A stretch of 64,000 nt of DNA from Mesodorylaimus sp. YZB2_4 (lineage: Eukaryota; Nematoda; Enoplea; Dorylaimida; Dorylaimidae), in the NCBI GenBank assembly GCA_030248295.1, contig JASANH010001177.1, forward strand, positions 1 to 64,000. Reading direction: 5' to 3'. The notes under the pieces are model-generated. The model did not search any database. It worked only from the letters and a program-made list of their open reading frames with translations, and was not told the DNA's origin. Shown here piece by piece: positions 1 to 63,407 of the stretch; the first letter of the stretch is position 1, and each line of letters begins with the position of its first letter. Position numbers and translations under genes: made by a program.

Positions 1-228
1 AAGGTAGTTTGTTTTAACTGCAAGGGCAGTGGTCACTATGCCCGAGACTGCTCCTCTCCGTGTGGTCAGTGCGGGGATAGGTCACACTCCTTGATGCAGT
101 GTAGCGCCAGAATTCGAGATGAAAGTCCGTACCATTGGAAGAAGTCACAGCCAGTGGAGGTGAAGGAGGAAGAACCAATCGAACGAACAACCGATTCAAA
201 AAACGTGAGGAAGGCGGTACACCACTGA
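1..228 (+). CDS. gag nucleocapsid C-terminal end (partial)
   Basis: Frame 1 is open from the window edge to a TGA at 226-228. It encodes two adjacent CCHC zinc knuckles of the form CX2CX4HX4C (first within residues 4-17, second within about 21-34), followed by a short charged tail. Such knuckles bind genomic RNA in the nucleocapsid region of retroelement Gag. The frame overlaps the pol frame, which is read at -1 relative to gag. The N-terminal capsid region is outside the window. Confidence 0.9.
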   Translation, partial: KVVCFNCKGSGHYARDCSSPCGQCGDRSHSLMQCSARIRDESPYHWKKSQPVEVKEEEPIERTTDSKNVRKAVHH

Positions 229-3200
229 GTGTGCCGCCTATCCACTATTTATTCCCTTCCCCCCAGAACGTACCCACTGTAAAACTATCTTTTGCAGAGG
301 CAGGCTACGGGCCGTATGGTGTATGCATGGCGAGCGATGGGCGAACGATGGTAACGGGACGTCTGTCTCTCCCGCAGATTGACGTCTCGATTGGCCGTCA
401 CAGGACTCGTGCGTATGTGGACAGTTGTGCAAGTATTACCCTGATTTCAGAGGAAACGATGAAGACGATAGAACGAAAGCGATACGATCGGTCCAAACTG
501 GAGCCCCCAGACATCGATCATTGTGTTGATGGGGATGGTAAACCAATGCCTATTATTGGCATTGCTCGTTTGGATATCAAAATCGGTGGTAAAATTGCAC
601 CTAATGTCCCATTCTACGTTTCAGAGTATGGAAAATATTCCGTGCTACTGGGAGAAGATTTCAACACGGGTCTGCATCGATGGCAATACGATACCGACAA
701 AGAACGAGTTCGGTACACGGCTGGTGCGTTGGCTGGTGTCGACGTACCAGTGCATCGTACGCCTCAAGACTTATTCCGAGCATCCGCTCGAATGGCTAAC
801 GCCACTCAGGTTGGAGCTCGTCGGCATGTGATCACCACAGCCGTCGCACCTCGTCGATATCGGGGACGCGATGTGCTCTTCGACCCGATGCCTATGAAAC
901 TACCAGTCATGATGCCCAGGACTGTGATACGACCTGACAAAAGGACCGGACAGTTTCTGGTCCCTTTAGTGAATCTGGCAGAAGTGGCTCAGATTCTGCC
1001 GAGAAATATGAATGTGGGATTTCTCTCTGAGTTGGAACCGTTCCGAGTGACATTCCGTTACAATCGGAGGACGGACCCAGGGAAATCTGGTCTACAATGG
1101 GAAATACCAAGTCCATTTCCGTTCGACAAGAAAGCGCCTCCGTTTTGGAGGATTGAGGCGGTCATTTCGGATCAACCCGCAGAGTTGGCGCCTGGTTCAT
1201 ACACGCCGATCAGGCCTGAGGTCGAATTCGTGAGACATGAAGAACTGTGGCTGCACACGGCGTGGAAAAACGATGGGCGGCCGAAGCCCAATCGCCTACA
1301 CCGAGTTCCGATCGACCGGCATGATTCGAAACGTCAGAAAGAACTATTGGGTAAGCTCAAATTCGGAAATGGCAATCTTTCAGAGCGAGACGAACAGCGT
1401 GTCCGTGCAGTAGTCGCATCTAATTCGGACGTCTTCGCCCTGAAAAAGGAAGAAATTGGTGGCACACATTTGGCTGAACATCATATCGATACCGGGGACG
1501 CAAAACCAATCATGGCCCGTCCTCGACGACTAGCCGAAAGTCAGAAGCCAATCATCCAGGAGGAAGTCGCGAAGTTATTGCGCCTGGGGTGGATTCGACC
1601 CTCACGTTCTCCATGGGCATCGCCGATCGTATTGGTGCGCAAGAAAACGGGCGATTGGAGGATGTGCGTCGACTCCCGTGCCATCAATAAGGTAACGAAG
1701 AAGGACGCCCACACACTGCCCAACATTCATGAAATGTTGGATGCACTGCGTGGGTCGAAGTATTTTTCAGTGTTCGACATGACGTCGGGGTATAGTCAGA
1801 TACCCTTGGACCCAGAAACGGCTGAAAAAACGGCATTCGTTTGCCCCTTCAGCTTCTGGGAGTACGTGAACATGCCATTTGGACTCTGCAACGCACCTGC
1901 GGAGTTCCAAAGGTGCATGGAGATGACATTGTCCGGATTGCTGTGGATTTACACCCTATGCTATCTGGACGATATCATAGTGTTCAGCAAGACACTGGAC
2001 GAACATGTCGAGCATCTGAACACAGTGTTTGGACGATTGCGAGAGGCACATCTGATGCTTGAACCATCCAAGTGCGCTATTGGCATGGACCGAGTCGAGT
2101 ACTTGGGCCATTGCATTAGTGCCGAGGGTGTTTCGATCACAGATGATAAGCGGGACAAAATCCGAAATTTCCCAATTCCGACGAACACGGACCAACTCCA
2201 CAAATTTATGGGGTTGGCCAGTTACTATCGATCGTTCGTCGAGGGGTTTGCTCGTAGAACCAAGGCTCTGCGAGAACTCTTGAAGAAGAACGTGCAATGG
2301 GAATGGTCGGATACACATCAAAAAGAATTCGAAGATCTGCGAGAAGCACTGGTAACGTATCCAGTCATGCGATATGTTGACTTCTCACTGCCTTTCAGAC
2401 TCAGCACTGACGCAAGTAGTTTTGCCATAGGTGCTGTCCTGGAGCAGTACGATCCGAAGAAGCCGAAGCACGCATGGGCTATTGGGTTCATCTCACGAAC
2501 TCTGTCACCAGCCGAGCAGAGGTACCCGACGATCGATCGGGAGTGCCTTGCTATTCATTGGGCGATCAAACAATATCGACATTATTTATACGGACGGTCC
2601 TTCGAAGTGTACACAGATCACAAGCCTCTCTTGTATTGGTACAAGGAGAAGGACTTGGAAGGACGTCGCGGTAAGTGGCTAATGCAATTGCAAGATTATA
2701 CTTTCAGCATTACACACGCGAAAGGATGTGACAATGGCGCCGCCGATTTTCTATCGCGCATGCCAGCAGCCGATGCTATGATGTTCTCGGCATTGTCACC
2801 CACCAAACGGTGTTCGACGTGTGGCCCTTCCGCATTGATCGCCTTATTGCCGCAAGCAGTCACGATCGAGTCAGATTCTGGTATCTCCGACGGTGGCGAA
2901 GCGACTGATGGTGACGGTGAGCAAGCTCCTGTCACAGAACCCGGTGTACCCATGATCTGCATCACGGCAGCAATGGATACGGGAAGCGAGGATGAGTCTG
3001 TGGTGGAGGCTCCAAGCGCAGTTATCGACGATATCCCGTTGGCTCCAGTGCGTGAGGTCCTACCAGTGCCTCTCCCAGTCAATTGGCTAGACCACTTTGT
3101 TGCTCTGGCATCGTCTGGTCCCTTAGACTCAATCTCTGAGGAGTGTAATGAAGATGGATATGAGGGCATGTTCAATGAATGTGCCGTCGCAATTGCTGAA

Positions 3201-3275
3201 GCGAAGCATGTGGTTGGAGCATCTGTCTGGACTACAGTAGGGTCTCCGGATACAGATGCCGCCTTGGAATTGTAA
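135..3275 (+). pseudogene. pol segment 1: protease, reverse transcriptase, RNase H
   Basis: The open frame holds, in order, an aspartic protease, an RT and an RNase H. The protease active-site triplet is Asp-Ser-Cys followed by Ala (417-431), where Asp-Ser/Thr-Gly is expected, and a downstream LLG-type flap motif is present. The RT carries the YLDD catalytic box at 1962-1973 and the usual PFGLCNAPAEFQR-like motif upstream. RNase H has TDAS and the conserved YTDH block. The frame stops at TAA 3273-3275 and continues unchanged after it, so the stop interrupts one polyprotein. The true entry point is the frameshift near 204, so the upstream 135-203 part of this frame is probably not translated. 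The region after RNase H (about 2760-3270) is an acidic linker. Confidence 0.88.
198..238 (+). promoter_or_regulatory. Programmed -1 ribosomal frameshift signal (gag-pol)
   Basis: In the gag frame the codons tca|aaa|aac form the canonical slippery heptamer A AAA AAC at 198-204. After an 8-nt spacer (205-212) comes a 10-bp stem: 213-222 pairs with 229-238 with one G-U wobble and no bulge. The 6-nt loop at 223-228 holds the gag TGA stop. Slipping back one base moves ribosomes from the gag frame into the long pol frame. Heptamer, spacing and stem all match the established -1 frameshift architecture; its activity is inferred. Confidence 0.88.
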
Positions 3276-4523
3276 GTGCAACCAGATGTCAATCTCTCTG
3301 ACGACTCCGACTCTGAATGCGATTTGGAGTTGCGGGACGAATTGGATCCAGCAACGCAATTGGAATCAGACGAGTTGGGGATCGACATGGCTAAAATAGC
3401 AGCCGATGCATTTCCTGATGCCCCATCCCAGGACCTTCTGAAGAAGATGCAACGGGATGATGATGAAATGGGACGTATCATTGCATTTTTGCAGGGTGAT
3501 TATAATCAGCCTCCCAGAATCGCGAATTTGGCGAAGAGCTATCTGCTGGACGACGAGGGCAATCTTATGCACAGATGGCATCACGAGAGCAGGTTGGTCG
3601 AAGGAACGTATCTTCACGACAGAGTGGTGGTCCCGTCAGAGCTGCGTCAATTCATTTTCGATGCTGCCCATAAGGACGCGAACCACCCTGGTTTCGATCG
3701 ACTGTTCTCTGCGCTGAGGATCAAGTATTTCTGGTCCACGATGCGACGCGATCTCAGGGCCTGGTGTGCCGAGTGCAATACGTGTGCGCGTTTCAAGGCA
3801 CCTCATCGATACGAACGACCGCCTTTGGAGATCATTAAACGCACAGCGCCCTTCGACACGATTGCCATCGACGTACAAGGTCCATTTCCAACCTCGGATC
3901 ATGGTAACAGGTTCGTGGTTATGATTATGTGTATATTCACCAAGTGGGCTGAGGCATATGCGGTGCCCGATCAAAAGGCAGCACGCATTGCTCGCCTGCT
4001 CGTCGATGGGTGGATCACTCGACACGGATGTCCTCGGGTGCTCCTTAGCGATCGGGGCTCTAATTTCTTGTCAAAGCTCGTTTTACGACTTTGCAAGGAA
4101 CTGGGAGTGAAGAAAGTTTCGACAACACCCTATCACCCGCAATGCAATGGTAATGTCGAAAATTTGAACAAGTTAATCGGGTTCTCCATGGCATGCTACG
4201 TGCATCCTAATCAAAATGATTGGGATAACCGATTGCAGCTGATAATGATGCATTATCGGCATACACCGCACACGACGACGGGTGTTTCCCCGTACCTCAT
4301 GTCGCACGGACGAGACCCGCCCACGGCATTGGATACTTTGCTCGCTCAACCTCGTACTGAATCGGTACAAGGCACTGAGTATGTGGATCACTTGCGGATC
4401 CGCATGGCGAGTATCGATGCGAAGGTACGTCAGAACATCGAACTCAATCAGTTTCGTCAGAAGTTGCAGTATGACAAAACGGCACGTCCTCTGTCGTTGA
4501 AAGTTGGAGATTGGGTTCGTTAG
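3276..4523 (+). pseudogene. pol segment 2: integrase core
   Basis: This is the same frame as the preceding segment, after the TAA. It encodes an H2C2 zinc-binding domain (paired His in the AHKDANHPG region, Cys pair in CAECNTC) and a catalytic core with Asp near 3867, Asp near 4050 and Glu near 4158. The last two are separated by 35 residues, the classical DD35E spacing. A TAG at 4521-4523 then interrupts the frame. TAA and TAG could each arise from a glutamine codon by one C-to-T change. No frameshifts are present in this segment. Confidence 0.87.
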
Positions 4524-5354
4524 CCGAATTACCACTTCAAACCTGGCCTTTCTAGGAAATTGAGTTTTCACTGGTTAGATCCATACGAAGTGGTGAAGCT
4601 GTTGGGTGAGTCGGGCGTGCTGATCCGCAATTTGCAGGATCCATCGAAGCCGATTGAACGATGGCACCCACAGCATCTGGTCAAGACGACGGAACGCCTG
4701 GAACGAGCTGCAGCAGTGGAAGATGTGTCCGCTGACGCAGAGCGCATACCGACGAAGGACATGGGTCTTTCAGAGCAGGTGGAGGGTAGTGCAGATAATG
4801 CTGATCAGCCTATTCCATTACAGGACAAGCCTACCTCGAATACAAGTTCGACGACGAATGTCCCGCCTGCTACGCAATCTTTCCACGTTGGTCAGTACGT
4901 TTGGGCGAAGGTCATGGGTTTTCCGTGGTGGCCAGGTCGTATTACAGGTCTGGGCCCGGATTCGTGCCCTGGTGACCTCGACGATGCACCGATCAAGAAG
5001 GCACATGCGTCTTCAGTGTCCAAGGTCAACTTGGAACAGGTATATCAGGTGCAGTTCCTGAACGATGATGGGAAGTATGCGTTTCTGCGAGAAACAGCGA
5101 TACGCGATTTTGCCACGCATCAGCAGTTCTTCCAGGCAAAGCTGAAATTAAAGAATTTCATTCCCCAGAAGCACAAGGGTAAGGTGGGTCGTTTGAAGGA
5201 AGCGATTCACCAAGCGATTTGTGCAATAGAAGATATGCGATTGGCTGGCACTTTGCCAGAGGCCAATCTTGACGAAGGTACAGCCCCGGTCCGATTCACT
5301 TCAGTGTATCGCTGCCCCTATGCGCCCTGTGTGCATTTGGACTGCGATATGTGA
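4524..5354 (+). pseudogene. pol segment 3: integrase GPY/F-like module plus PWWP domain
   Basis: The same frame continues after the TAG. First comes a GPY/F-like module (W-x-DPYEVVKLL ... WHPQHLVK), the usual end of a Gypsy integrase. After a serine/threonine-rich linker, 4880-5240 encodes a PWWP domain: hydrophobic V-W-A-K-V followed by the signature F-P-W-W-P-G (4919-4936), then a basic C-terminal helical part. PWWP domains bind nucleosomes through methylated H3K36 plus DNA, as in LEDGF. By analogy with chromodomains in chromoviruses, the domain could steer integration to transcribed chromatin; that role is inferred. The ORF ends at TGA 5352-5354. Confidence 0.85.
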
Positions 5355-5636
5355 TTTTCGGAATTTGAACTTCCCGCGCCTGAGCATCTTCGTGGTGGAA
5401 CACGTTGCTCAGGAGGTCTACTTCAAGATGGTCTCGTCATGTGCGCCGCCTGGAAAATTTTCCTACGGTGGGCTCGCGTGACGCGACGAATTATTTCTGC
5501 TGCCCACTGGTTCAGTTTCTGATCCCTGCTTTCTTAGCCTGACGACCTGGACATTTTTCTCCGGGATCCCTTAATCGAAGGTGCCCTACGTTTCACGGGA
5601 AGCGTGGGGTCACGCTTCTTTTAAGGAGGGGAGGAA
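5355..5636 (+). other. Retroelement 3' untranslated region with polypurine tract
   Basis: There is no coding signal between the pol stop and the LTR. A purine run at 5623-5636 (aaggaggggaggaa) sits immediately before the TG of the LTR, the expected place for the plus-strand priming tract. Confidence 0.7.
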
Positions 5637-6009
5637 TGTAATAGGCATGGACTAGGCATGTGTTATGTCCTCCGGCCTATGTGTGTACTGGTTCAGGGAA
5701 CCGGTCCGCCTCTCCTATGTCAGGGCCAGCACGAGACCGAGAGCGAGGTTGAGGTCGAGTGGCTGGTCTGATTGCAGACATCGGTTGAGAACTAGTCTGG
5801 ATCACCTGATCTGAACTGCTCTGTGAGCACTTCGGGCTCAGGCCCGTCAGAACCCCTTTGACGGCCGACACGTGCGGCTGCTCCCCGAATTGTGAGTCTA
5901 CACGGCCTTATTGGTGTGGGGATAGTAAACTGTATCAATAAGTGTCCGTGGACTGCGTGGTACTGTTCCTGACTTGGGCCATCCTCTGGTCAGCCCTAGT
6001 TCTATCCCA
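5637..6009 (+). repeat. 3' LTR (start clear, end tentative)
   Basis: The segment begins TGTAATAGG directly after the polypurine tract. It holds an AATAAG poly(A)-like signal at 5937-5942. The end is placed at a CA dinucleotide before the tandem array, but without the 5' LTR the boundary cannot be confirmed. Confidence 0.55.
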
Positions 6010-6030
6010 GGGCGAGCCAAGGATTTCATT

Positions 6031-7075
6031 ATCCATGTCTATCGCACAGTCCATCTCCTCCTTCACTGCCTTGTCACTATCCCTGTCGGTTGCCTTGTCC
6101 TTGTCCTCCTTCACTGCCTTGTCCTTATCCATGTCCATTTCCCAGTCCATCTCCTCCTTCACTGCCTCGTCCTCATACATGTCTATCGCACAGTCCATCT
6201 CCTCCTTCACTGCCTTGTCCTTATCCATGTCCATTGCCCAGTCAATCTCCTCCTTCAATGCCTTGTCACTATCCCTGTCTATTGCCTTGTCCTTATCCAT
6301 GTCCATTGCCCAGTCCATCTCCTCCTTCACTGCCTTGTCCTTATCCATCTTTATTGACCAGTCCATCTCCACCTTCAATGCCTTGTCCTTATCCATGTTC
6401 ATGGCCCAGTCCATCTCCTCCTTCACTGCCTTGTCCTTATCCATGTCCATTGCCCAGTCCATCTCCTCCTTCACTGCCTTGTCCTTATCCATGTTTATTG
6501 ACCAGTCCATCTCCACCTTCAATGCCTTGTCCTTATCCATGTTCATGGCCCAGTCCATCTCCTCCTTCACTGCCTTGTCCTTATCCATGTCCATTGCCCA
6601 GTCCATCTCCTCCTTCACTGCCTTGTCCTTATCCATGTCTATCGCACAGTCCATCTCCTCCTTCACTGCCTTGTCCTTATCCATGTCTATCGCACAGTCC
6701 ATCTCCTCCTTCACTGCCTTGTCACTATCCCTGTCGATTGCCTCGTCCTTGTCCACCTTCACTGTCTTGTCCTTATTCATGTCCATGGCCCAGTCCATCT
6801 CCTCCTTCACTGCCTTGTCCTTATCCATGTCCATTGCCTAGTCCATCTCCTCCTTCACTGCCTTGTCACTATCCCTGTCTATTGCCTCGTCCTTGTCCAC
6901 CTTCACTGCCTTGTCCTTATCCATGTCCATTGCCCAGTCCATCTCCTCCTTCACTGCCTTGTCCTCATCCATGTCCATTGCCTAGTCCATCTCCTCCTTC
7001 ACCGCCTTGTCACTATCCCTGTCCATTGCCTTGTCCTTGTCCTCTTTTACCGCCTTGTCCTTAACCAGGTCGTTT
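6031..7075. repeat. 48-bp tandem repeat array, about 22 units
   Basis: Successive copies of cttcactgcc fall 48 bp apart (6061, 6109, and so on). Units combine the blocks ctccttcactgccttgtc, cttatccatgtc and attgcccagtccat with a few point variants and occasional variant blocks. Since 48 is a multiple of three and the unit lacks stops in several frames, long open frames run through both strands: a 16-residue Met/Asp/Lys/Glu repeat on minus, and Ser/Leu or Pro/Ser repeats on plus. No start context, promoter or domain supports translation. Confidence 0.9.
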
Positions 7076-7609: not shown

Positions 7610-9212
7610 TGGATGATATTTGCAAAATCGTTCGCGCAAGGAAGGTACTTATCGATCGATAGCCGAGGAAACCTTTTCCCGATTGTGGAAAAATGCAAAA
7701 GTTATTGCTATCCCGAAGTCTGGCGATCGCTCCGATTGTGGAAATTATCGACCGATTTCGCTGCTATCGCTATTATCGAAAATTTTGGAAAAGCATTTCG
7801 ATTCCTTGATAAGATCAAAAATAAGATTCTCAGCCCATCAGCACGGTTTCTGCGGACGACGTGGTACCAACAGCGCTTTGATTGGTGCAACGGAATTCAT
7901 CCACTCATCGATCAATTCAAAGAAATCTCGATACGTAGCTGGAATTTTTCTCGACGTCCAGAAAGCCTTCGATAAGGTGCCACATTAGCTTTTGTTACAT
8001 TCGCTGTCCGAAAAGCATCTATCACAACCTAAGATTATTCGATGGATTGCATCGTATTTGAATGGTCGTTCACAATATGTCTCGATCAATGGTTGTGCTT
8101 CCAACTCAGTATCCATTCGTAGCGGCGTCCCACAGGTCAGTATTCTAGGACCAACACTATTTATTGCGTACTTCGATGAATTGTTACGTGATTTTGAGAG
8201 TCGATTTCCTGAATTTCGGTTGCAAGCTTATGCGGACGACCTTCTTCTAATGGTTCCTTCAAAATCACTCGACGATGTTAATCGATCGGCACAACCTGCC
8301 TTGGACTTTATTGTAAAATGGATTTCGCTGGCCGGACTGAATCTCAACCCGACTAAAACGCAAGTCTTGATTTTTTGTTATGGTCCTAGCCCCGACTTTA
8401 GAAGGATCTCTCTTTTCCTGAATAATGCATCTTTGCATGTTTCGAACTCTGTCAGATACCTAGGAGTTCTTTTTGATCACGATCTCAAGTTTTCTGATCA
8501 TATTTTTGAAGTTACCAGACGGGCAAATTCGATGATTGGTGCCATTAATCGCAAGTTTGGTCGTTCGGTTTCTTCCCAAATTTTAATTGCTGTTTACAAT
8601 GCGTGTGTAAGATCAGTTCTTGAATACGGATGTGTATCTTGGGACCCCGTTTTGAAAAAAGATATTCAGGAGCTTGAGCGATCTCAATTTTTTGCGCTGC
8701 GTATGATTTTGAAAGATTGGAACGTGTCGTATGAGACTGGACTTAGTCTGATGGGTTGGTCTTCACTTCATGATCGTAGAAAATGTCTTAAACTATGCCA
8801 GTTCCAAATATTACAATGGTACACACGATTTTCCGAATTCTCTTTTTATTCACAAAACGGATTCAGGTTTACGTTTTAGCGCCCGCTTGACAGAACCTCA
8901 TCATTTGATTGTTCCAATCCCTAATTATGAACGTTTTAAGCAAAGTTTTTTGTACAGCTCTATGAATGCATGGAACTCGTTGCCATATGAAGTTGCCTCG
9001 ATTACAGATAGACAAATGTTTCGGAAAGCTCTGTCGAAGTCCATAATGTCATAAGTTTATCGATGATGTCTTTTGTTTTCTTTGACGACTTTTTAATAGT
9101 TTCGCTCTTGATTTTGTTTTATGCTTTACGTCATCCCTTATGTGGCTTGCTGTCTCAGAGTGCACAGTAATGTGTTTCGGCAAGAAATAAATAGAAATAG
9201 AAATAGAAATAG
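7610..9212 (+). mobile_element. 5'-truncated non-LTR retrotransposon (LINE), decayed
   Basis: The encoded RT has, in order, NYRPISLLS, HGFCGRRG, FLDVQKAFD, a GVPQ-SILGP-like motif (Gly replaced by Val) and YADDLLL near 8230, then the C-terminal region typical of Jockey/CR1-type elements. The frame 7620-8879 has a TAG at 7986-7988 and then shifts: the C-terminal part continues in another frame to 9054. There is no endonuclease domain, as expected after 5' truncation. The 3' end carries a short microsatellite tail (9186-9212). Confidence 0.85.
9186..9212 (+). repeat. (AAATAG)n 3' tail of the LINE
   Basis: Four tandem near-copies of aaatag terminate the LINE. Short tandem repeats instead of poly(A) are known at the ends of CR1/L2-like elements. 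Confidence 0.7.
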
Positions 9213-27295: not shown

Positions 27296-28380
27296 TTAGA
27301 CCTTGGCGGTCTTGGCAGCAGCTTTGGCCGTTCTTTTTGGACAAGGACAATAGTGAGCATCGGGGCCGGGGCCGCCTTTTTCTCCTGGAGGACCAGTTGG
27401 GCCTTTGTCGCCTGGTTTTCCACCTTGTCCAGGGGGGCCTGGTGGGCCGTCGGTGCCCTTTCCGCCCGGTTTGCCAGCAGGTCCTGAAATGTTCAATGGT
27501 CAGGTTGTGTGCCTGGATGGGGCAGGAGTGGACATACCGCGTTCGCCGTCGTTGCCCTTTGGACCAGGTTCGCCCTTTGCTCCAGCCGGGCCTGGTGGTC
27601 CTTTTTCGCCCACTTGAGCGTCCTTTCCTGGTTCGCCCTTCTCACCAGATTTCCCATCCTTGCCCTTCTCGCCGGCGGGTCCTGGTGAACCGGGTGGTCC
27701 TTGTGGGCCATTCTTGCCGGGCTTTCCAGGAATACCTGGATAGCCTTTGACGCCCTACAAGGTGAAACGTGTCGTTTTGTTCAGACGATAAACTGAGACG
27801 GGACTTACATCTTGACCTTTGGGTCCGGGTGGACCTGGCGGGCCAGGTGGTCCAGGTGGGCACCATAAGCATTTGCCTTCTTCGTCCAAGTGCACAGGGG
27901 GGTAGTTGCCAGGCAAACCAGGTTTGCCTGGACGACCTGGTTCACCAGGCGCGCCATCGGCTCCGCCCTCGCCTGTAAGAAAATGTCACTCTCATTTTGA
28001 CATCCAGCGTATGTGCACACTGTGCGTACCAGGGGAGCCCTTGGGTCCAGGTGGGCAGCGGTTCTCCGCGTTACAGTCGCAGACAGCGCTGGCTTGACGA
28101 ACCTTCCTGATGGGGTCGGCTTGCTGACGGGGGAACTTCAAGGAGGCGATGTCTCCCCAGGCTTCGTCGGAGATGATCTAAAGAGCACATGATGATCGGA
28201 CTATCAGGACCCACCGGTGCCAACAGAGGCTACCTTGAACTCGCTCATGCTATTATCGACCATCATTTGGATTTGGGACGCCTTCTGGTAGACCATAGGG
28301 ACCATGACGATACAAGCCAAGAGGGTCATGACGCTGACGGCCGTAGCCGTGATACCGGCGATGTAGGCTGAAGCGGACAT
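27296..28380 (-). CDS. Nematode cuticle collagen
   Basis: Five minus-strand exons (28234-28380, 28030-28177, 27809-27972, 27538-27754, 27296-27483) give 287 residues, the usual size of nematode cuticle collagens. Residues about 5-30 form the hydrophobic segment of the N-terminal cuticle-collagen domain, followed by the conserved [13 protein letters not shown] block and an Arg-rich stretch suited to furin-type cleavage ([13 protein letters not shown]). Gly-X-Y repeats then come in blocks separated by cysteine pairs ([16 protein letters not shown]) and the protein ends in HYCPCPKR plus a Lys/Ala tail. The product would be secreted by the hypodermis, trimerise and be crosslinked into the cuticle. 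All splice phases agree. A TATA box lies about 70 bp upstream. Confidence 0.95.
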
Positions 28381-54611: not shown

Positions 54612-56705
54612 TCAGTCTTCAACGACTGCCAGACCCGCCATGATGAAAATGCTACCAATCAGAGCAAGCATGCTTGCGACAGATATGGCCATAAAAATCA
54701 TATGAACAGAAAATTGCGTAGTGCTCACACTCCTGAAAGCATTTTCTCGAGATGGCGTCCGTTTCCGATCAGAAGAATTCATGAGGAAAATTGATTTTTG
54801 TGTTTTCAGTTGCGGATAATCGCTTGTGGTGGAGGGGGCGGGGGGATCACGGGTTCTTGGGATACAGAGTCGGAAACTGGATTTGATGGTTAAATAATAG
54901 CGCTTGAGTTTTTCGCAGTTGCTCGGCTCGCATAACCAAACTGCTATCAAAGTAGCGATGGCAATTTGGGCCATCATGGCCAGAAAGAGCCAACCTGAAA
55001 CAGGAGTGGGTTAGGCTCGAACGATTGTGCACGCGTCCAACTTACTCAGCAGAGGAACAGTGGAGGAGCCCTTGGGTACTTGGCTGGACACTTGTAACAG
55101 TTGAATGGAGAATGTGAGCAGGGCGGTCATGCCCAGACTCAGCTTGTCGTAGGTGCACTCGGGGGTGTCGACCGGTACGAAGAGACCGATCGAGGCGAAC
55201 AGACTAATGACGATCATGGGCAGGATGAGGCTGACCACGTAGTACATGGGACGACGTTGGAGGTAGTAGGTGGCTGTGATCCTCGAGAAGGGGATGGCGG
55301 CCGTCACCCAGTACATGTCGGTTACGTTCAACTTGCTCTTGATCAAAGTCCATTCCTCGTTTTGTCGATAATAATCCACGTTGACACTGTCCATCCTCAG
55401 CGTGAAGCGTAGACGACTCACGTCCAGAACTGGTTCGAAGATCATGTAGCAGGCTTGGATGTCGAACGGGAACAAGAACATGTTGATCGGACAAGAAAAT
55501 TTGAAGATGGCATTGTAGCCGAACATCATGAAGGCATGGGACGGGTCCTGCTTGGTGTTTATTGTCATCGATACTATGGTTGGATTGTCCGTTTGTGCTC
55601 TGTCCAATTCCACACTACAAAAGGGGGGCCAGGCTAAGAAGACTTGACTGCTGGCTCGAAACCAAGTCCAGACGAAGCCCATTGTCTCTAATCGTATTTG
55701 TCCATGCATACATGACTTTGAGTGTGTAGGCCATTCGCTAAGACCACTTTCACAAAAACAAAGACAAGGACGGAAGAATGGCCCTTTTCAGGCATTCAGA
55801 CGTCAGATATTGGCCCAAACGAATTTCAGACAGAAGACTGTCCTAGTACTGACTTCATTCGGGCGTACAGGGTTCATTGCCTGAATTCGTACTAACCTGT
55901 TTGTTAGGAAAGTTTGAGGTCGCCACACGTCCTCGTATGGGGTGGCAAGGTTGGTGATATTGCTGTAGTCAGCTGGGTTCCAAAATAGCTGTGCATCCTT
56001 CCAGTCCTGCTGGATCCAGGCTGACATTCTCACAGTTTGAGTGCTTTCATCCTGCAAGGGGAATTTCATATCAGGAGTATATCACAGTGTGTCTGTAAAC
56101 ATGCCATTTTGGCAGTGAGCAGGCCCAGTTCACTTAGCAATCGCCTACTGTCAGCGGGCCTACAGTCTCCCCGCATATCCTTGAGCTTTCAGGAAGCACA
56201 CACTGTACACAGATTGCCTACCAATGTCAGCAGCTGATGAAGCTCCAGATAAAAGCTGACATTGACCGCCTGGAGCACAGTCGGATCGCATCTTGGGTTG
56301 TATCGAGCTGGATTTAGCAAATAATTGAACAAGCGGAATTGATCTTGAAGCACTTGCAGCTCCTTGTCATCGTCGTCTTCTAAAAGCCAAGAACCGCCCT
56401 TTGATTGCACGCTTACTATTCGGTTTGATGCCTTTTATGAGGAAGCTAAATAAGGTCTATCACCCAAACCCTGAAAAGACAGTCTGAAAGTTCTTAATGA
56501 GAGTGTCCCTCCGATCCCAAAGCTTACTCTTACTGCGCTTATTGTCTTACTCTTACTGTGCTGCCTTATATGGCTCTCCCCTAAGCAAGGTGACACAAAA
56601 TTCGGCGCAAGACGTCTTGTGTCAAATTTGGTCTCAGAGCCGAAAATATGATCCACAGCTTACCTGCACTGACCACGAGAATAATATCAGTCAGAAGCCG
56701 AATCA
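54612..56705 (-). CDS. Cys-loop ligand-gated ion channel subunit A
   Basis: Minus-strand exons 56222-56379, 55897-56051, 55046-55614 and 54612-54994 are secure; a tentative 42-nt exon (56664-56705) supplies a signal peptide (IRLLTDIILVVSA). The Cys-loop is CPINMFLFPFDIQAC with 13 residues between the cysteines. M1-M3 follow (LPMIVISLFASIGLF; M2 starting YDKLSLGMTALLTFSIQLL; WLFLAMMAQIAIATLIAV) and M4 ends the protein. The membrane-proximal M2 end has DK rather than the Pro-Ala-Arg of anion channels, so cation conductance is likelier; the ligand is unknown and no vicinal Cys pair is seen in loop C. The start codon may be split (A|TG) with an unidentified first exon. Closely related to subunit B at 61152-63407. 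Confidence 0.85.
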
Positions 56706-61151: not shown

Positions 61152-63407
61152 TCAAACCACACTGCCTTTCGGAATGTCAATTCCCGCCATGACAAAGATA
61201 CCCCCAATTTGTGCCAGCATGCTGAGAAATGAGATGGTCATAAAGAAGATATGGGCATATAATTCTGCATCGCTGATGGCTTGATGGAGTTGCTCTTTTT
61301 CTGGCGCCAGTCTCTGTTTCTTGGGCGAGTTCAAGAAGAATATGGACGACTTGGCTGGTTTCAACGGGGGTGGGTGCACTTTGGCGGGCTTTTTGAAGCA
61401 GCAGCGGCGACACGGCAATTTTCTCAATATTTCCGACAATAATTTTAGCGGTTTGCTATTCATTATTTTGGCGCAGTTCTTCGGGTCACATAGCCAAACA
61501 GCCAGTATAGTGCAGATTGCGACTTGTGACATCATGGCAAAAAAGAACCAGCCTGAAACAAATGATTGTTTGGAAATTGGCACTAGCTAAGACTACTGTC
61601 GACTTACTCAGCAGCGGTACTGTGGAGGAGCCTTTGGGGATTTGGCTGGACACTTGCAAGAGCTGAATGGAGAATGTCAGCAGAGATGTCATGCCCAAAC
61701 TTAGTTTGTCGTAGGTACATTCTGGATTGTTGACTGGCACGAAGAGGCCGACCGAAGCGAACAGACTGATGACTATCATGGGCAAGAGAATGCTGACTAC
61801 ATAGTAGAGGGGCTGGCGTCGCAAGTAGAACGTGGCCAAGATTCTGGAGTAGGGCACTGGTTGAGTGATGTAGTACCTCTCAGTGAGACTCAGTTCACTC
61901 TTGACCAATATCCACTCGTCGTTCTGCGTATAATAGTCAGTATTGACGTAATCGATGGCCAGCTTGTACCTGATGCGAGACACGTCCAACACGGGTTCGA
62001 AGTTCATTGTGCATACTTGGATATCGAACGGGAACAAGTACATATTGATGGGACATGAGAACTGGAAGATGGCGTTGTAACCGAACATCATAGAAGCATA
62101 GACGGGGTCATTCGAAGGGTCTATTGTTATTGCGACTACTTGTGGGTTCTCAGTTTGAGCTTTGTCCATTTCAACACTACAAGAGTGAGCCTACTGTAGT
62201 AACAGGCAACTTTGTTTCCTTGCAAGCATGCATTGGCCATTAACGAACAGCACCAAGCCACAGTAGTTTTATGTTTAGGCAGGCAGCCAAAAGGAGCTAT
62301 AGAGACAGCAAAGATCCGCCATGGCGCAATGGGCATACGAGGAAAAGCAGTATTTTCGATCCCAGACCGCGACTTTGTTCAAAAGCAGAACTTCACTTGA
62401 TTAGCCAAGTGGGAGAACGAGATCAAACTCTCATCAGGCCCGTGGAATTAAAGTGAGTGCGGATTCTAAAACTTACCTTGTCCTTTGTAAGCTGCCTCCA
62501 GTAGAACGTCATATGTCATACCTGTTAGTAAGGTCAGTCTGGGGACGCCAAACATCAGCGTATGGAGTTGAAATAGTGGTAATATTACCAAAGTTGGCTG
62601 GATTCCAGAATAGATGCGGATCTTTCCAGTCCAACTGAAACCATGCCCACATTCTCACAGTTTGACTATTTTCGTCCTGCCAATCAGAAAAAACGGGTGT
62701 CTGGTAAAATTGTCGGACTGGTTTGATGCCACAAGCCCACCATGGTTTCACGGCTTCCTAGCTGAGTGCCTCCTAGTTTCTCTAATAGGCTATTTTAGAG
62801 TTTTAGAGGCCGGCCTCGTGGCCTGGTGGGTTAGGCGTCTGCCTCTCACGCCAGGTGCGCAGTTACGGGCGAGTGTTCGACTCGCGGGCCGGTAAATCAT
62901 TTCGTGTAAAATGTGTCCCTTCACCCTCGAGTGCGCATAAGCGTTTGGTGATGTGGTAAAACATGAACATGAGTAGCGCCAGCGTGGTGCTATTTAATCG
63001 TAAGTAGCGCCAGCATTACCAGTGTCAACAGTTGGTGTAACTCCAAATAGTAGGTGACTTCTAGGGGGTGAAGCTGAGTTGGATCGCATCTCGCGTTGTA
63101 TCGACTTTTGTTGAGTAAATAAGAATACAAGCGATACTGGTGTTGCAGGGGATTATATTCAATCTCATCTGAAAGAAATCTTCGATACTGCAAGTCCTAG
63201 TGAAACAGTTTCGACACTTATAAAAGGCTTTGAGAGAGAAAAGAGCAGTGCGAAGCATAAAAAACATCCGATCACTCACCTTCAGTCACATTATCCGTCT
63301 GGCCATACGCGACTACAATGGAATCACAAGGTAGGCTCTATCAGAACTCATACAAATCCCTTACCTCCCAATATAATAACGAACGACTTCAGAAGATATG
63401 CCGCCAT
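61152..63407 (-). CDS. Cys-loop ligand-gated ion channel subunit B
   Basis: Six minus-strand exons (63365-63407, 63280-63312, 63020-63168, 62522-62676, 61608-62176, 61152-61552) give a complete 449-residue protein. It has a signal peptide MAAYLLKSFVIILGVAYGQ, an N-glycosylation site NVT, then the ligand-binding domain with WNPANFGN and a Cys-loop CPINMYLFPFDIQVC (about 168-182). M1-M3 and M4 follow, with M2 starting YDKLSLGMTSLLTFSIQLL. The 155-bp and 569-bp exons have exactly the same lengths and phases as those of channel A, showing recent common origin. There is no vicinal Cys pair in loop C, so a classical nicotinic alpha role is unlikely. The large M3-M4 loop is Lys-rich. Confidence 0.92.
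62812..62985 (+). repeat. tRNA-derived SINE
   Basis: The head 62812-62892 resembles a tRNA: A-box-like TGGCCTGGTGGG (62819-62830), B box GTGTTCGACTC (62873-62883), and a perfect T-arm GCGAG/CTCGC around a 7-nt loop (62869-62885). A unique tail follows. It lies in intron 3 of channel B, opposite to its transcription. Fragments elsewhere in the window make it a dispersed family. Confidence 0.8.

Follow-up and report, generated by a model that had tools for sequence, protein, structure and literature searches.

The window, by which we mean the whole analyzed stretch of 64,000 nucleotides from the nematode Mesodorylaimus sp. YZB2_4, starts at the first base of its contig, so the 5′ long terminal repeat (LTR) and the rest of gag of the element at this end lie outside it, and the part of the element within it runs from the 3′ end of gag through pol to the 3′ LTR (Table 1). 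Within the pol frame, the Pfam matches follow the order characteristic of Ty3/Gypsy elements, namely, protease, reverse transcriptase (RT), RNase H, and integrase, with the protease match under its cut-off. The catalytic triad of the integrase (D 3870, D 4050, E 4158) shows the D, D-35-E spacing. The protease triplet, DSC rather than the usual DSG or DTG, is also present in two related loci (L031 and L032); a pattern search found none in a third (L033).

Table 1. Parts of the Ty3/Gypsy element at the start of the window
Feature	Position	Strand	Basis and remarks
3′ end of gag	1..122	+	frame 1; CCHC zinc knuckle C 10-12, C 19-21, H 34-36, C 49-51; read from sequence
Aspartic protease-like stretch	378..662	+	triplet DSC; PF13975, E 1.1e-5, 26.4 bits, below the Pfam cut-off of 28.2
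Reverse transcriptase	1635..2111	+	PF00078, E 3.7e-34; YLDD at 1962
RNase H	2379..2699	+	PF17917, E 3.8e-35
In-frame stop TAA within pol	3273..3275	+	interrupts pol of the window copy
Integrase H2C2 zinc-binding domain	3630..3800	+	PF17921, E 4.7e-16
Integrase catalytic core (rve)	3846..4160	+	PF00665, E 1.4e-10, Pfam match 3846-4139
In-frame stop TAG within pol	4521..4523	+	interrupts pol of the window copy
GPY/F-like module	4569..4685	+	block conserved in lineages A, B, and C; assigned by motif, not by profile
Variable linker	4695..4874	+	from alignment
PWWP domain	4890..5219	+	PF00855; C-terminal to integrase
pol stop codon	5352..5354	+	sequence
Deletion junction	5496..5503	+	about 1.9 kb of the C514 copy (L031), holding a 194-aa open frame there, is missing from the window copy
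Purine-rich stretch, probable polypurine tract	5623..5636	+	read from sequence
3′ LTR (TG...CA)	5637..6028	+	matches both LTRs of the C514 copy; end inferred, at about 6028

The PWWP domain and the state of the window copy

A sequence-only reading of this locus had placed a PWWP domain at positions 4880-5240, at the C-terminus of a Ty3/Gypsy integrase, and this assignment is borne out. The Pfam family PF00855 matches residues 123-232 of the open frame at 4524-5351 with an E-value of 7.2e-12 and a score of 46.1 bits, against a cut-off of 25.6, and when the PWWP family model was run against the whole genome, the window match fell at 4890-5219. The FPWWPG motif, which had been described as intact, is indeed present at 4920-4937. 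The structure prediction that had been proposed as a check was less informative: single-sequence AlphaFold2 modeling of the window PWWP domain yielded a mean pLDDT of 33, too low for a usable model of the β-barrel/helix fold.

The same reading described a pol frame that continues past the GPY/F-like module into the PWWP domain. This is correct with respect to the frame, which is the same, but not to its continuity in the window copy: given the two in-frame stop codons, the GPY/F-like module and the PWWP domain sit in the third open segment (4524-5351) of that frame. With these two stop codons in pol and about 1.9 kb missing after it, the window copy is a dead, broken element.

For the lineage to which the window element belongs (hereafter lineage A), flanking LTRs are documented by the C514 copy; the window itself contains only the 3′ LTR. 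Because the two LTRs of the C514 copy are 99.4% identical over 336 aligned bp, at least that one copy looks recent; this age estimate comes from the LTR pair of a single copy, in which the sequence past the 5′ LTR resembles poor assembly. No target-site duplication was found in the C514 copy.

The stretch that is lost from the window copy after pol includes an extra open frame in relatives. It encodes 194 aa in lineage A (L031:768-1349, minus strand) and 272 aa in lineage C (L033:1052-1867, minus strand), and the two products are weakly alike (27% identity over 52 aa, E 2e-5, in a single comparison). In the lineage B locus L032, pol is followed by frames of 259 and 473 aa, which may belong to a neighboring element.

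Several other features were observed in the window. A 48-bp tandem repeat array that is open in several frames occupies positions 6026-7071, starting right where the 3′ LTR ends; the region 7617-8879 contains frames whose translation reads as a reverse transcriptase of the non-LTR (LINE) type; and two related frames on the minus strand (55011-55787 and 61486-62190) resemble subunits of ligand-gated ion channels, by reading alone.

PWWP-bearing and other integrases across the genome

The genome searched consists of 145 Mb in 1067 contigs. A search with the 276-aa C-terminal tail of the window pol yielded 86 matches out of 120 candidates, all scored. The whole tail is covered, at 94-100% identity, in 15 loci, including the window; one of these has internal stop codons. 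Four further loci, which we denote lineage B, align over tail residues 1-253 or 1-255 at 55-58% identity, and the tail of lineage C, used as a query, has 80 matches out of 109 candidates. Pol frames that are open throughout and include the PWWP domain encode 1743 aa (contigs C514 and C42), 1712 aa (C385), and 1776 aa (C77 and C402). Across the integrase-PWWP segment, identity to lineage A is 70% for lineage B and 61% for lineage C, and the catalytic residues are invariant in all three. The absence of other copies carrying the PWWP segment in frame, which would have spoken against the proposed fusion, is thus contradicted by 15 whole-tail loci and by open pol frames of 1712-1776 aa; with such in-frame copies present, the domain at the chromodomain position of this Ty3/Gypsy integrase is carried by lineages rather than by one copy.

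Beyond lineages A-C, the PWWP family model has at least 146 matches in the genome (150 of 173 candidates scored), of which 35 lie within open frames of at least 1000 aa, and the integrase core (rve) model has at least 150 matches (150 of 526 candidates scored); because both match lists are incomplete, these counts are lower bounds. Altogether, we delineated eight lineages with an integrase PWWP domain (A-H, with nine representatives) plus one degenerate group. Each of the eight long-frame loci outside lineages A-C that were fetched and read encodes an integrase, a GPY/F-like block, and a PWWP domain near the end of the frame, and one piece from each of the lineages B-H scores above the Pfam PWWP cut-off (7/7). 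The fusion, the location of the domain behind the GPY/F-like block, and its spread across lineages are, accordingly, matters of direct observation. When the nine element PWWP domains were combined into a profile and compared with the PDB, 75 distinct sequences were retrieved at E ≤ 0.01, with the best E-value of 3e-19; the best 60 of these 75 are, going by the given names, PWWP-bearing proteins (DNMT3A/B, MSH6, the HDGF family, NSD2/3, LEDGF, BRPF1, and others).

Pairing of the two sets of matches shows the same arrangement. For 41 of the 150 rve loci, a PWWP match follows on the same strand within 2.5 kb downstream, 40 of these at distances of 599-751 nt and one at 2430 nt; as positional controls, no PWWP matches were found upstream on the same strand and two on the opposite strand. 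From the remaining 105 PWWP matches, those without a scored rve upstream, we fetched 20 of our own choice, and all 20 resemble the PWWP domains of the elements: 18 match one of the nine representatives at no less than 53% identity; the other two, at 26-27%, carry the tail of the degenerate group. Accordingly, no host PWWP gene was recognized among these 20 matches, that is, no host donor was seen, which argues against the local capture of a host gene by a single copy that had been put forward as an alternative.

The converse set, rve loci without a PWWP match, was sampled by fetching 14 loci. Five of these integrases (L060-L063 and L065) comprise the degenerate group, which forms one branch (100/100). 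A PWWP-like C-terminal domain is present in all three members of this group that were fetched with a complete C-terminus; none of the three reaches the Pfam PWWP cut-off (the best score is 23.6 bits, and one has no match). A profile-profile comparison of the group with the nine PWWP domains gave a probability of 96% and an E-value of 2e-9 (a single comparison), and a profile of the degenerate group alone found no PWWP domain in the PDB. Two kin that share the tail of this group do pass the Pfam cut-off (37.1 bits on contig C108 and 27.9 bits on C216). Another five Ty3/Gypsy loci (L057, L059, L064, L066, and L067) have proline-rich C-terminal tails without a PWWP domain. Of the other four, L055 reads as a Ty1/Copia element, L058 is a copy of lineage D truncated at the contig end, and L054 and L056 have short frames, read without reaching a C-terminus.

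Chromodomains were searched for as well. No match was detected with Pfam at E ≤ 1 in the three pol segments of the window or in the C-terminal pieces of the other lineages (0/7). When 70 chromodomain matches from the genome were paired with the 150 rve loci, four loci had a chromodomain match 520-522 nt downstream on their own strand, and there was none upstream or on the opposite strand. This chromodomain-linked family is located on contigs C682, C268, C851, and C1059, with the chromodomain in another short frame. Because four of the 150 rve loci have a chromodomain and others have a PWWP domain, the two kinds of integrases coexist in one genome.

Some further observations pertain to the genome and its assembly. 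Contigs C78, C128, C174, C192, C538, C111, C372, C847, and others begin or end near the same point of the integrase frame (rve approximately 707-1014 from the end); the probable cause is that the assembly broke at a repeat, the alternative being an element associated with telomeres. The copy on C78 belongs to the degenerate PWWP-like group. The cuticle-collagen N-terminal family, a marker of nematodes, has 133 matches in the genome, one of them in the window (28231-28350), which identifies the host as a nematode. The exact SL1 spliced leader pattern was not found in the genome, and the SL1 family had no matches among the 50 scored of 31302 candidates.

Phylogeny of the integrases and reverse transcriptases

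A search of a protein database with the integrase and PWWP query yielded at least 115 proteins, among the 8000 candidates scored; none of these 115 is listed with PF00855, and integrases with a chromodomain rank high among the matches from outside this genome. The integrase tree was built from 65 rows, 22 from the genome and 43 of these 115 proteins; four of the 26 genome rows, near copies or Ty1/Copia, were left out. In this tree, all 15 rows with a PWWP or PWWP-like domain fall on one side of a branch with 91/91 support, which is below the level that the program marks with a star. Because the degenerate group is nested inside the PWWP side, the 10 plain PWWP rows do not by themselves form a clade (p-AU 0.051 when they are held as such). 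The main chromodomain group forms a separate branch (99/81), with one more chromodomain row elsewhere; a tree that unites the chromodomain and PWWP groups is worse by 7.9 log units, a difference that does not lead to its rejection (p-AU 0.27).

An RT tree had been suggested as a further check, and we constructed two RT/RNase H trees, of 51 and 45 rows, among which, given the length filters, there is no chromodomain-bearing protein. Lineages A, B, C, G, and H group together in both (98/93 and 100/100), and D, E, and F are not joined to them, so the single PWWP clade across all lineages was not recovered. In the first tree, lineage E is placed beside outside rows, weakly (80/81). Each of the trees implies three changes of the PWWP label, and forcing the PWWP and PWWP-like rows into one clade in the second tree is not rejected (p-AU 0.29). 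For the first tree, the pieces were trimmed by local match, the bootstrap had not settled, and there was a long-branch warning; for the second, fixed-offset pieces were used, and branch lengths of 5.4 for the PWWP-like rows suggest misalignment. Thus, a single origin of the PWWP domain, that is, a single capture by this group of elements, is favored by the integrase tree and is not recovered by the RT/RNase H trees.

The alternative is that several element families captured host PWWP exons separately, so that the domain would be no single old feature. The position of lineages D, E, and F apart from the rest in the RT/RNase H trees, without firm placement, fits this scenario, as does the low identity, 18-25%, of the PWWP domains of lineages D-H to that of the window. 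However, the integrase tree joins all PWWP and PWWP-like rows, the domain keeps a constant position after the GPY/F-like block in the loci read, and the sampled PWWP matches yielded no host donor. On balance, we consider repeated capture rather unlikely, compared with the single acquisition that the integrase tree favors.

Selection, the aromatic cage, and a possible chromatin tether

Selection was assessed in 13 of the 15 lineage A copies, one copy with stop codons and one with a length change being left out. The pN/pS ratio is 0.11 for the PWWP domain and 0.08 for the GPY/F-like module, compared with 0.22 for the linker and 0.20 for the tail. Between lineages A and B, dS is close to saturation, and the dN/dS ratio of the PWWP domain is 0.23; the comparisons of A with C and of B with C are saturated. 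As judged from these ratios, the PWWP domain is under purifying selection within lineage A, a direct observation on the copies of the window lineage, and this suggests that the domain has been kept through cycles of transposition.

The columns of the aromatic cage, through which PWWP domains read methyl-lysine, were placed with the help of HDGF2 and BRPF1, the HDGF2 numbering being in part presumed, and the placement was compared with the PDB alignments. The cage positions given in PMC3119473 are Y18, W21, and F44 in HDGF2 and Y1096, Y1099, and F1147 in BRPF1. In the window, the corresponding codons encode three aromatic residues, F (4920-4922), W (4929-4931), and F (5055-5057). Only two of the nine representatives, those of the window lineage A and of lineage B, have all three aromatics (F, W, F); the cages of the other seven are incomplete (Y,W,L; V,W,F; I,W,F; H,L,F; F,A,F; Q,W,F; and H,W,F). 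Hence methyl-lysine reading is not a constraint shared by all lineages.

Taking these findings together, the window holds a broken copy from one lineage of a large, divergent group of nematode Ty3/Gypsy elements, and we regard it as fairly likely that the integrase PWWP domain of this group is a self-encoded chromatin tether, a role proposed by virtue of the known activity of PWWP domains and the analogy with chromodomains and LEDGF/p75. After reverse transcription, the PWWP domain, as part of the integrase, would bind nucleosomes through a methyl-lysine on a histone tail and through DNA, and would thereby tether the integration complex to a particular class of chromatin, as has been proposed for the chromodomains of chromoviruses and as LEDGF/p75 does in trans for lentiviruses. 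For the window lineage, the mark would be, with less weight, H3K36 methylation on transcribed genes, the reading of which is plausible given the three cage aromatics of this lineage. Where the cage is altered, the domain may recognize another feature or may bind DNA for the most part.

The main competing interpretation is that the PWWP domain is chiefly a DNA- or nucleosome-binding extension of the integrase, contributing to intasome stability or nuclear retention, with no choice of sites by histone marks. The domain is retained even though seven of the nine representatives lack one or two cage aromatics; in one sub-group, it is more degenerate yet still recognizable; and the PWWP domains tested in PMC3119473 are reported to be weak methyl-lysine binders. 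The altered cages of lineages other than A and B would be explained roughly equally well by mark-blind binding of DNA or nucleosomes and by mark reading. Against the mark-blind interpretation, the F, W, F cage is complete in A and B; the purifying selection in the 13 lineage A copies also counts, although by itself it does not separate mark reading from DNA binding. Overall, we deem this interpretation somewhat improbable. A fuller scenario under the tether hypothesis is tentative, if possible: a single old PWWP acquisition would have been followed by diversification, whereby the full-cage lineages would aim at H3K36-methylated, transcribed chromatin and the others, with the cage reshaped or lost, would aim elsewhere, so that families living side by side in one genome would share out its chromatin through the retuning of a single domain.

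Release of the PWWP domain by the element protease, to act as a separate protein (to counter silencing of the element, for instance) rather than within the integrase, could be suggested by the variable linker that separates the domain from the GPY/F-like block, but chromodomains at the same position act as part of the integrase, and we consider such a free protein quite unlikely. Capture of a host PWWP gene by a single copy, or chance resemblance, for which one could invoke the broken state of the window copy, is ruled out to the point of negligible probability by the 15 whole-tail loci, the other lineages, the long open frames, and the PDB profile matches.

Returning to the tether hypothesis, the closest known systems are the chromoviruses, of which a chromodomain on the integrase is a hallmark according to PMC3605345 and PMC2774666, the latter also describing the GPY/F module. 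Chromoviruses and the PWWP elements share the PR-RT-RH-IN order, the GPY/F-like module, and a chromatin reader of the Royal family at the integrase C-terminus. They differ in the identity of that reader, chromodomain versus PWWP, and, as described above, the main chromodomain group is separate in the integrase tree, with the union of the two not rejected. Among the chromovirus traits, the window element has the GPY/F module, by motif only, and no detected chromodomain. The CoDi-A elements likewise carry a reader at the integrase C-terminus, which, according to the authors of PMC2774666, may be an independent capture; unlike the PWWP elements, these are Ty1/Copia elements of diatoms, and the reader is a chromodomain. 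In the case of lentiviral integrase and LEDGF/p75, it is also a PWWP domain that joins the integrase to chromatin, and the LEDGF PWWP binds H3K36me3 (PMC8149907); there, however, the domain resides on a host cofactor and acts in trans, whereas the nematode element encodes it in cis. The host PWWP proteins (DNMT3A/B, NSD2/3, the HDGF family, MSH6, and BRPF1) contain, by profile, the same domain family. These proteins are not known to contain an integrase, and the full cage considered here is present in only two of the nine element representatives.

A search of the protein database with the GPY/F-PWWP tail gave no matches at E ≤ 0.001 (2575 candidates) or at E ≤ 0.01 (619 candidates), and no relative was found in the viral and prokaryotic contig collections that were scanned. 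Because these collections are viral and prokaryotic, and the protein database may hold few nematode proteins, such negatives are weak evidence on the distribution of the fusion. Among the papers listed from the open-access literature, none mentions a PWWP-integrase fusion in a retrotransposon in its title or in the beginning of its abstract. The chromodomain version of such an arrangement is already known; for PWWP as the C-terminal chromatin reader of a Ty3/Gypsy integrase, no earlier report was found among these papers.

The classic example of a retrotransposon with a chromatin reader of its own is the chromodomain integrase, and LEDGF exemplifies a PWWP domain that acts in trans for lentiviral integration; a PWWP domain built into the integrase joins the two. 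Because PWWP-bearing, PWWP-degenerate, chromodomain-linked, and reader-less families are present in one genome, comparing them is by itself enough to test how the reader affects the choice of insertion sites.
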